NCBI GenBank assembly: GCA_002687895.1
Contig: NZBL01000009.1
Span: 1-33,123, forward strand
Length of the DNA stretch: 33,123 nt
Origin: a bacterium
Lineage (GTDB): Bacteria; Patescibacteriota; Patescibacteriia; UBA2169
Direction of reading: 5' to 3'
In this document: positions 2,810 through 27,437 of the stretch, one piece after another
Numbering within the stretch: position 1 is the stretch's first letter
Layout of the letters: each line of letters starts with the position of its first letter
Notes under the pieces: model-generated
Told to the model about the DNA's origin: nothing
Databases searched by the model: none
The model's input: only the letters and a program-made list of their open reading frames with translations
Program-made: the position numbers and the translations under genes

Positions 2810-2881
2810 AAAAAAGAGGGTACTGACTCAAATAGTCAGCCCCTCTTTACATAGATTATTGACTAGCCCGTCCTAGTCAAT
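2810..2881 (-). terminator. Tandem hairpins downstream of the purB/purC remnant
   Basis: agaggg-tac-tgact-caaat-agtca-gc-ccctct with T-run on the minus strand; adjacent 11-bp perfect stem ttattgactag-cccgtc-ctagtcaataa. Confidence 0.7.
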
Positions 2882-2923
2882 AAAAGATGCAATTGCGTGC
2901 TGGATTCGCTGGAGAACCAGAGT

Positions 2924-4282
2924 TTAATCTTCTTCCAGTTCAAACGTTTCCCCGGTCGCGCGCTCAAACAGGTCAATATACCGCTGGGCGACCTGAATGC
3001 GAATCTTGTTGTCCAATTCTGGGATGTTGTCGTCCGAGATATTGCGCTCCGCGAACAAACAGCTTGAGCGCGATTGCCTGGATATGCCCCCACAGTTCTG
3101 GATCTATTAGGCCGCGCTCAACAACTTGGTAGACTGAGAGCGGCTCATCATGCACATACGACTTTGTAGTGGGAGTGATGACTAGATTATCCAGCTTGCT
3201 GTTTTTTTGTATGCCAGCAGGCAGGATGAGGCCGTAAGGACCCTGCTTTTCTATGTAGTTCATCCACAAGGAAGTTTCTGTACTTCCAGTGATGTACGCG
3301 CGGACAACTACTTCCACAGGAAGTATTTCTACTTCCTCGCATACCATAACATTGGGATCTGGCGAGCAAATTACATGGGACCTCACTATGTCATTTGTTC
3401 GTTCAAACCACCAAAGAGCCAACTACTCCAACTTCCTTTTTTTCCGTAATTTCTCCTATCTCGGTGCGCATGAGTTGTCTGCAATCGCGTCCGAACTGCG
3501 CGATATTCTGCGTAACGAGAGCAGCAGAGAATAAGAAATAGGCAAGTGGATCTGGCGGTGCGATTTGGGTACTGATAGGAGCGGGTTTTATTCCGAGCTT
3601 CTCCAGCACCCTATGCTCAAAAGATTTAGTCCCGCACCGTTCAGCAATGCCTAGATGTACCTGCGCGTTGTATGCGCCAACAGGGCCCGAGATTGTACCC
3701 ACTAGTTCATCTGCATGCAAACTAAGCTTGCCGGTATTGTATTTAATACGATCCTCAATACTTGCTAGCCAGAACCCTACAGTAATTGGCAATGCATGTT
3801 GCCCATGAGTTCGGCCAATTTGAGGTTGATCAGCTAGTTCGCGGATTCGCAGTGCGAATAGACTAATGACTTCATGTAGTGCAGGCTGGATAGCCTCTGA
3901 ATGGACTTTTTTATATAACCATGCACTGCCGGTGTCTAAGGGATCATAGCTTGTCATGGACACGTGTATCCATCTGCCAATAGCCTCGTGAAGTATTTTT
4001 TTGCGCTAGACAAACCTATGCGCGCACATCATGTCTTATCTTACGTTCTTCTTCGTCCACTTCTGTCGTTGTTATTGCCCTAAGTGCATCCTTTTTATCT
4101 GGTGTGAGGTGGAGGAAGTCAGCATCTGGAATGATACCAATCTCATGAAGCACTTCCATTGCTGCAATTTCTACTTCAGCTAATCCCCAATAAAGCTTGT
4201 CATAACCCAAAAAGGGAGAAAGTTTTTCTGGCTGGTAGCGAGGATTGCCTAGTACAGCGAAGTTTAGCTGTTGTGCTGACAT
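2924..4282 (-). pseudogene. Degraded purB-purC remnant: adenylosuccinate lyase N-terminal half joined by deletion to a SAICAR synthetase lacking its N-terminus
   Basis: PurB N-term (4282-4016) stops at TAG; resumes in another frame after a 7-A run (GRWIHVSMTSYDPLDTGSAW...GRTHGQHALPITVGFW...). At ~3410 it joins PurC (ALWWFERTNDIVRSHVI...PVEVVVRAYITGST...TPTTKSYVHDEPLS). PurC shifts frame again near 3065 to FAERNISDDNIPELDNKIRIQVAQRYIDLFERATGETFELEED*. Confidence 0.88.
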
Positions 4283-16597: not shown

Positions 16598-16668
16598 AAG
16601 ATTTATATTAAATGATTATATTTATACATTACTATATATATAGTATATGCAATATGTGTAAAACTTAT

Positions 16669-16696
16669 TTGACAAATCAGCGATTTTTGCTAGTAT
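16669..16696 (+). promoter_or_regulatory. Sigma70-like promoter of leader locus A
   Basis: TTGACA (16669-16674), 16 nt, TAGTAT (16691-16696). Confidence 0.75.
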
Positions 16697-16704
16697 ATTT
16701 TTAT

Positions 16705-16758
16705 ATGGTTGAACAAAACAAGAACCTTATCCTAGTTTTTTCTATTATTGGCACGTAG
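16705..16758 (+). CDS. Putative leader peptide A: MVEQNKNLILVFSIIGT
   Basis: ATG 8 nt after the -10 box; TAG stop (16756-16758) directly abuts CCGAGG at 16759. Confidence 0.5.
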   Translation: MVEQNKNLILVFSIIGT

Positions 16759-16816
16759 CCGAGGTTCTTGTTTCGTTCAATTATTTTAAGAAGACCTCGG
16801 ACAAACCGGGGTTTTT
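16709..16816 (+). promoter_or_regulatory. Putative four-segment transcription attenuator A
   Basis: Segment 1 (16709-16727) pairs with 2 (16762-16780), 18/19; CCGAGGT (16759-16765) pairs with ACCTCGG (16794-16800); ACCTCGG alternatively pairs with CCGGGGT (16806-16812) followed by TTTT. Confidence 0.65.
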
Positions 16817-16851
16817 AAATTGTACCTTAACCTTAAAAGTGGAGGATGGTA

Positions 16852-17076
16852 ATGACAGAATTAATTCATGCTGAAGAGAGTGGTTTAATCGACCTTTCTG
16901 GGCTTACCTTCAGAGAAGCTCGTAAGGTAACTAAGAAAGATGTCAGTCATGCCAAAACTGCATTAAGAATTGCACATAATGCAGGAAAAGCTGAAGAAAT
17001 AGCTAAATGCGAAGAACGTCTTAGAGCTGCTCGAAGAGCGCGAGAACCCTATATACACCCTGGATCTATAAGATGA
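16852..17076 (+). CDS. Small helical charged protein controlled by leader A
   Basis: GGAGG Shine-Dalgarno then ATG 16852: MTELIHAEESGLIDLSGLTFREARKVTKKDVSHAKTALRIAHNAGKAEEIAKCEERLRAARRAREPYIHPGSIR. Confidence 0.7.
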   Translation: MTELIHAEESGLIDLSGLTFREARKVTKKDVSHAKTALRIAHNAGKAEEIAKCEERLRAARRAREPYIHPGSIR

Positions 17077-17095
17077 GACTGGGTGTAAAACTTGG

Positions 17096-17127
17096 CAAAA
17101 TACTCCTACGAAGTTGTAGGGGTATTT
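17096..17127 (+). terminator. Terminator after small protein A
   Basis: AAAATACTCCTAC-GAAGTT-GTAGGGGTATTTT. Confidence 0.75.
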
Positions 17128-17183
17128 TATTTGCCCAAAATTTTCTATATAGGTATACTAGTAAAAGAAATTAAAATAAAATT

Positions 17184-26790: not shown

Positions 26791-26806
26791 AATTGTGGAA
26801 AACTAT

Positions 26807-26834
26807 TTGACCAAATGTAAAATATCAGTATACT
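26807..26834 (+). promoter_or_regulatory. Sigma70-like promoter of leader locus B
   Basis: TTGACC (26807-26812), 16 nt, TATACT (26829-26834). Confidence 0.7.
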
Positions 26835-26843
26835 TAAGTTACC

Positions 26844-26891
26844 ATGAACGCACAAAATCTCGTTATTACTATTCTTAAGAATAGCGGATAA
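26844..26891 (+). CDS. Putative leader peptide B: MNAQNLVITILKNSG
   Basis: ATG 9 nt after the -10 box; TAA stop 3 nt before CCGAGG. Confidence 0.5.
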   Translation: MNAQNLVITILKNSG

Positions 26892-26893
26892 TA

Positions 26894-26949
26894 TCCGAGG
26901 TTTTATTGCATTTCACATTCATTCAAAGAACCTCGGAAAGAGGTTCTTT
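26894..26949 (+). promoter_or_regulatory. Mutually exclusive hairpins of leader B
   Basis: TCCGAGGTT (26894-26902) pairs with AACCTCGGA (26929-26937); alternatively AAAGAACCTC (26925-26934) pairs with GAGGTTCTTT (26940-26949). Confidence 0.65.
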
Positions 26950-26970
26950 AGTTCTTTAAGGAGCTGTAAA

Positions 26971-27150
26971 ATGACTGAGCAAAGATTACAAATAAAGGGC
27001 TATGAGGGTCTTCCTGTGTATTATCAGGAAGATGAGCCTGATAGTAGCGTTACAAGGGCTAGAGCCCAAAAGGTTCAGAAAGAGGAAGATAGGCCTAGTC
27101 ACGAAAGGGACGATGATGCTGGCGCTGGCATACAAAGGGGGCTTGAATAG
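26971..27150 (+). CDS. Small acidic/charged protein controlled by leader B, 59 aa
   Basis: AAGGAG Shine-Dalgarno; MTEQRLQIKGYEGLPVYYQEDEPDSSVTRARAQKVQKEEDRPSHERDDDAGAGIQRGLE. Confidence 0.65.
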   Translation: MTEQRLQIKGYEGLPVYYQEDEPDSSVTRARAQKVQKEEDRPSHERDDDAGAGIQRGLE

Positions 27151-27211: not shown

Positions 27212-27437
27212 TAAAAAGGACCCTGTATAGTAAAAGATCACTACACAGGGTCCACCGAATTGAATGAGCATGCGCAGGCAAAGAGGTAACCGGGCCTTAT
27301 GGCCACAACACCTTGCGGCCCAAGGATTCGAACCTTGGCTCCTTGCGGGTGCCAACCGAATCCCACGCTTGGCTTTGCGCCTCCTTTCCGGTTTCGCAGA
27401 TTTTCGGTTTCTCTCCAGCACTATGGCCAGAGACGAT
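27212..27437 (-). ncRNA. Free-standing structured ncRNA of unknown class, about 225 nt
   Basis: Minus strand: TTGACA (27472-27467), 17 nt, TAGTAT (27449-27444); structured GC-rich body with GCGAAACCGGAAAGGAGGCGCAAAGCC and CCAAGG-TTCGAAT-CCTTGG; terminator GGACCC..GGGTCC (27218-27253) with T5. Confidence 0.7.

Follow-up and report, generated by a model that had tools for sequence, protein, structure and literature searches.

The window, a 33,123-nt stretch of DNA from a 735-kb genome of the Patescibacteria (23 contigs), contains a locus at which transcription is probably attenuated in a ribosome-mediated manner, by way of a leaderless leader ORF, to judge from its sequence. This locus, termed locus A, has a promoter, a short leader ORF, and a set of alternative RNA pairings in front of a gene for a small orphan protein. 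Four related loci, one of them also in the window, keep the leader frame and the position of its stop codon.

Anatomy of locus A

All parts of locus A are on the forward strand. The promoter is TTGACA-16-TAGTAT (positions 16669 to 16696), with TTGACA at 16669 to 16674, TAGTAT at 16691 to 16696, and a TG preceding the -10 element. An upstream box, TGTGTAAAACT (16655 to 16665), lies directly before the -35 element. The leader ORF, MVEQNKNLILVFSIIGT, has 17 codons (16705 to 16758). It starts at the ATG at 16705, eight nt past the -10 element, and its TAG stop codon (16756 to 16758) directly adjoins CCGAGGT (16759 to 16765). There is no Shine-Dalgarno (SD) sequence in front of the leader.

Four complementary segments make up the rest of the switch. 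Folding and an ortholog alignment place segment 1 within the leader ORF (16705 to 16728), as the 5' strand of a stem of 23 pairs (the 1:2 stem) whose 3' strand is at 16761 to 16784. Segment 2 is the CCGAGGT after the stop codon, an alternative partner for segment 3, AGAAGACCTCGG (16789 to 16800), which includes ACCTCGG at 16794 to 16800. Segment 3 pairs either with segment 2, as an antiterminator, or with segment 4, as an intrinsic terminator. Segment 4 and its U-run, CCGGGGTTTTT (16806 to 16816), form the 3' arm of that terminator, with CCGGGGT at 16806 to 16812. The SD sequence of the regulated gene, GGAGG (16841 to 16845), is 6 nt upstream of the ORF start, and the gene itself (16852 to 17076) encodes 74 aa. 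A likely terminator past the gene, AAATACTCCTAC-loop-GTAGGGGTATTTT (17098 to 17128), was read directly from the sequence. A sequence-only reading of this DNA had placed the promoter with its ATG eight nt past the -10, the 17-codon leader with a TAG abutting CCGAGG, and the four segments with their 1:2 stem, antiterminator, and terminator just where we found them. Its count of 6 Leu/Ile/Val residues among the 17 of the leader is corrected here to 7.

Five loci share the element

The same element is found at the syntenic position, with the TPR gene, tRNA-Thr, and tRNA-Tyr, in three genomes of the same family: G005 (which we take to be bacterium CG10_46_32), G002, and G004. The upstream TPR gene is kept in all six same-family genomes examined. 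In G005 and G002, the TPR gene, tRNA-Thr/tRNA-Tyr, and the leader element are followed by a small ORF, of 62 aa in the former and 63 aa in the latter, and G005 afterwards carries the window's next membrane gene and its 6-phosphogluconate dehydrogenase-like gene. G004 carries the element as far as its contig end. Among the family genomes compared, the element is absent from the syntenic place in G001 and G003, and the G006 contig ends too early to tell.

A model made from the three complete orthologs pointed to a diverged second attenuator copy in the window, at 26839 to 26952 (locus B, forward strand). By comparison of the loci, it has an upstream box, TGTGGAAAACT (26794 to 26804), a promoter, TTGACC-16-TATACT (26807 to 26834), and a leader ORF, MNAQNLVITILKNSG (26844 to 26891). 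Pairing energies and an architecture scan place its CCGAGGT (26895 to 26901), ACCTCGG (26930 to 26936), and terminator within 26895 to 26950. A gene for a charged orphan protein of 59 aa, which is probably disordered, follows at 26971 to 27150. A pattern search of the other family genomes found no second copy. Locus A is one of two copies in the window and one of five loci. Near locus B, on the minus strand at 27316 to 27340, there is a T-arm-like hairpin, CCAAGG-TTCGAAT-CCTTGG, that is not called as a tRNA or tmRNA by ARAGORN or Rfam.

We compared the five loci A, B, G005, G002, and G004, of which four are complete and G004 is cut by its contig end. They come from four species of one family-level lineage, and G004 and locus B were detected without being part of the covariance model. 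The other four loci have an equivalent promoter with a spacer of 16 to 17 nt. All five have the box TGTGnAAAAyT upstream of the -35 element, and the intergenic DNA of the source genome has just two copies of its form TGTGnAAAACT, at loci A and B. This box may serve as an UP element or bind a regulator. The other strand of the box, TTTTnCACA, resembles a DnaA box; however, intergenic DNA shows no enrichment of that form (8 of 43), and therefore we do not claim this reading.

The leaders are MVEQNKNLILVFSIIGT (A), MNAQNLVITILKNSG (B), MIEQNKTLNLITLTNG (G005), MMVARIKNLNLFSVNRQ (G002), and MKLSNKNLITLNTG (G004). Their frames are open for 14 to 17 codons and end, in the same order, at TAG, TAA, TGA, TAG, and TGA, which lie 0, 3, 2, 1, and 2 nt before CCGAGG, a hexamer that does not vary among the five loci. 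When the sequence from ATG to CCGAGG was shuffled, a stop codon fell 0 to 3 nt before CCGAGG in 2.3 to 5.2% of cases per locus, chances that we left unmultiplied because the loci are related. A short leader ORF that overlaps the first pairing segment keeps its frame and stop position in five loci. The loop nucleotides vary while the frame and the stop position stay, as expected for a translated leader.

The distance from the -10 element to the ATG is 8 nt in A, 9 in B, 8 in G005, 7 in G002, and 9 in G004. The AUG would therefore coincide with the expected 5' end or lie no more than about 3 nt from it. Leaderless starts are plausible in the source genome, and are suggested to be common in this species, because TAnnnT is enriched 6 to 8 nt before approximate start positions (up to 9.9% versus about 3.5%) and SD motifs are found before just 9.3% of genes, counted from the same approximate starts.

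We also scanned about 720 kb of the source genome for the generic architecture, that is, a short ORF with a stop codon no more than 4 nt from a GC-rich hexamer, a complement of the hexamer downstream, and a terminator overlapping that complement. The scan returned loci A and B only, and four Markov-1 randomized genomes contained no such arrangement. An unrelated hairpin, terminator, and short ORF could in principle lie together by chance, since 17-codon ORFs are common and every single feature is weak alone. However, the conservation in five loci of four species, the detection of G004 and B outside the model, and the empty randomized genomes leave that explanation with a negligible probability. 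The pattern of segments 2, 3, and 4 occurs at 28 places in genome_contigs and at two in viral_contigs, and the leader accompanies it only in CG10_46_32. Numerous class-wide R1 matches near 30 bits proved, in those alignments that we inspected, to be ordinary CCTCGG terminators without a leader.

Competing folds and their conservation

The 5' RNA of locus A has a minimum free energy of -45 kcal/mol, compared with -20.9 ± 3.3 kcal/mol for dinucleotide shuffles (z = -7.3), and none of 200 shuffles folded as well. Compared across loci, the fold z-scores are about -7.4 (A), -7.8 (G005), and -6.8 (G002). The 1:2 stem and the mutually exclusive antiterminator (2:3) and intrinsic terminator (3:4) are present in all four complete loci. 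The attenuator logic of the sequence-only reading is therefore supported: each of the four additional loci keeps the leader ORF, and the three complete ones keep 1:2, 2:3, and 3:4.

Three nucleotides bear directly on the alternative fold. The CCG of CCGAGG lies outside the 1:2 stem, yet it is invariant in all five loci. Its sole conserved partner is the CGG of segment 3, which likewise does not vary in any of the four loci extending to this point. Because CCG takes no part in the 1:2 stem and can find a partner in segment 3 alone, the alternative fold itself is conserved. Across both stems of the three orthologs, 96.2% of cells are paired, with 3 two-sided changes; when the partner was slid by 1 to 3 columns, at most 57% of cells paired and no two-sided change was left. 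Column shuffles reached the observed covariation score in 89 of 500 cases. Covariation alone is modest, and it is thin because the five loci all belong to a single family-level lineage. The invariant CCG is the stronger argument for pairing.

The energies of 2:3 (-12.3 to -20.2 kcal/mol) and 3:4 (-12.5 to -16.7 kcal/mol) are near each other, and so the two pairings compete. The 2:3 and 3:4 values are -13.1 and -14.5 in A, -12.3 and -12.5 in B, -20.2 and -14.5 in G005, and -15.7 and -16.7 kcal/mol in G002, so that in A, B, and G002 the terminator slightly outweighs the antiterminator, and the switch would have to depend on the order of transcription. When segment 1 was masked in equilibrium folding, 2:3 was preferred in G005 over most of the leader, and 3:4 was preferred in A and G002. 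In the latter two, the switch would therefore be kinetic, with 2:3 able to form ahead of segment 4 synthesis.

The same folds could be worked by a small-molecule riboswitch or a protein-binding attenuator, with a leader ORF that is untranslated or irrelevant. A ligand that stabilized 1:2 or 2:3 would act identically, and the leader lacks an SD sequence. However, the apical loop is unconserved in its nucleotides and varies in sequence and length between loci, which makes a small-molecule aptamer less likely, whereas the loci retain both the reading frame and the position of the stop codon. No curated covariance model of a T-box or known riboswitch matched the window at gathering score; the Rfam families found there at that score are tRNAs only, and matches below it were at chance level. 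We therefore regard a ligand-operated switch as improbable.

A model for the switch and its signal

From this anatomy, we infer the transcription start site, leader translation, ribosome stalling, and the direction of control in the translated-leader attenuator. Transcription would begin 0 to 3 nt before the leader AUG, so that a ribosome could load onto the 5' end of the nascent RNA. If the leader is not translated, segment 1 would pair with segment 2, segment 3 would be free, and the 3:4 terminator would form (off). If the leader is fully translated, a ribosome at the stop codon would cover CCGAGG, neither 1:2 nor 2:3 could form, and the terminator would form again (off). A ribosome stalled in the first half of the leader would instead cover segment 1 and expose CCGAGG. 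The 2:3 antiterminator would then form ahead of segment 4 synthesis, and polymerase would read into the SD-initiated small gene (on). In this scenario, the switch probably permits the small helical protein only upon ribosome stalling.

The earlier reading had named branched-chain aminoacyl-tRNA or a ribosome-targeting compound as candidate cues. Leader residues after the Asn-Leu motif are rich in Leu, Ile, Val, and Thr (22 of 40, with 11.9 expected; P about 0.0007), and Leu makes up 12 and Asn 14 of the 74 residues in the five leaders. A trp/ilv-type attenuator that senses charged tRNA for Leu/Ile/Val, or for Asn, would be a narrower version of the same attenuator. However, the leaders have no run of codons for one amino acid or codon family; their residues are a mixture of Leu/Ile/Val/Thr and Asn that differs by leader. 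Asn is enriched too. The conserved Asn-Leu codons (AAC CTT and AAT CTC) sit in segment 1, a stretch that has to pair with GAGGTT, and so their conservation is not evidence of sensing. The source genome has no match to ketol-acid reductoisomerase, and the downstream gene is not biosynthetic. Sensing of a specific amino acid is thus unlikely, and the branched-chain cue is not specifically supported. Because pairing alone can explain Asn-Leu, and because there is neither a codon run nor a reductoisomerase match, we favor a general stall sensor. Slowed elongation, from amino-acid shortage or a ribosome-targeting compound, is the most likely cue, and a branched-chain cue is at most as likely.

Small proteins downstream of the switch

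The 74-aa protein is indeed uncharacterized, as had been noted, and is an orphan. At an E value of 0.001 or less, it has no homolog in 388 other genomes of the class, and genome_contigs contained none. The one match among relatives covers 31 residues (E = 0.008) inside a 689-aa frame. The protein thus has no convincing relative. We rejected a lone viral match, a long ORF that shares IDLSGLTF by chance, and a Pfam L32p match that is noise (E = 0.077). The downstream ORFs match no Pfam or PHROG family, and none is a resistance, efflux, or biosynthesis gene. The G005 and G002 proteins have no convincing relative in 37 other genomes each; a weak match of the G002 protein in G006 sits on the strand opposite another long ORF and was discarded. 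The locus A, G005, and G002 proteins align with one another at 18 to 25% identity, which is too low for proof of homology. Single-sequence models predict two-helix hairpins for both the locus A and G005 proteins (mean pLDDT of 71 and 89, respectively). Our guess, from the switch, is that the small product has a role in translation stress. The 62-aa ORF of G005 has another small ORF in tandem behind it, of 57 aa and also helical-looking (L047 minus strand, reverse-complement coordinates 2836 to 3009).

The terminated RNA of about 115 nt might itself be the product, as a stand-alone sRNA or a type I toxin-like mRNA for a hydrophobic peptide, with the downstream ORF barely involved. It has its own promoter and terminator, and the leader is conserved while the downstream proteins are dissimilar in sequence. 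However, this would leave the invariant complementarity of segments 2 and 3 unexplained, and a membrane toxin would be expected to have a longer hydrophobic stretch than the roughly 10 residues seen here. Moreover, an SD-led small ORF lies directly downstream in every complete locus, with SD-like sequences in G005, G002, and locus B as well. The A and B ORFs both score as coding, and the locus A gene has a higher codon-usage score than 99.6% of antisense pieces. An RNA or peptide product of this kind is therefore very improbable, and we retain the reading in which the leader controls the downstream gene.

Comparison with known attenuators

Most bacteria of the Candidate Phyla Radiation have not been cultured, and their gene regulation is poorly known. 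The trp, his, and ilv attenuators have SD-led leaders, runs of cognate codons, and biosynthetic operons. The present loci share with them a leader ORF over segment 1, the exclusive pairings 1:2, 2:3, and 3:4, and a stop codon beside segment 2. Unlike them, they have a predicted leaderless leader, mixed codons, and a gene that is not biosynthetic. Like erm and BmrC/BmrD of Bacillus subtilis, the latter with a leader peptide and ribosome-mediated transcription attenuation (PMC4191407), they combine a leader with attenuation, but erm and BmrC/BmrD control resistance or efflux genes, which the present loci do not have.

Mycobacteria have leaderless, cysteine-responsive short-ORF attenuators (Canestrari et al. 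2020, cited in PMC9094748). There, as is predicted for the present loci, a short leaderless ORF at the transcript 5' end attenuates a downstream gene. As far as the citing account goes, the mycobacterial ORFs have poly-Cys coding and operonic genes, whereas the present loci have no codon run, a 2:3/3:4 intrinsic-terminator switch, an orphan small protein, and a host in another phylum. In Sinorhizobium meliloti, a DUF1127 gene is under uORF-translation-dependent transcription attenuation, a proposed monitor of translation efficiency (PMC12218461). Both systems tie attenuation to uORF translation and control a small-protein gene. However, in what that source relates, the DUF1127 uORF is led by a ribosome-binding site and has a C-rich attenuation element inside; its sequence is unrelated and its mechanism different. 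The toiL uORF of Escherichia coli topAI-yjhQ senses many translation stresses via stalling at different positions (PMC12121999), but it acts on a ribosome-binding site and Rho-dependent termination rather than on an intrinsic terminator.

Our literature search found no paper on transcription attenuation in Patescibacteria. As far as we searched, what is new is the combination, together with the phylum and the orphan targets; the attenuator logic is known from trp/ilv. We tentatively suggest, at somewhat less than even odds, that the loci represent a class of leaderless leader-peptide attenuators of this Patescibacteria lineage, driven by promoters that have the upstream box in common. Such a class would sense translation stress (perhaps 70S-ribosome status) and in response turn on helical-hairpin microproteins that evolve fast, the switch being better conserved than the protein. 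If so, reduced genomes would keep translation-coupled regulation through a conserved, compact, leaderless ribosome-stalling sensor. It would offer a way into the genes that translation stress induces, and small proteins that evolve rapidly would become candidate stress effectors; the switch is small enough for testing in E. coli or a purified system.

In Woesebacteria, L165 (129 to 185) lacks a leader ORF but resembles these loci in its 2:3:4 switch, CCGAGGTT / ACCTCGG / CCGAGGTTTT, an arrangement that may be a ribosomal-protein leader.
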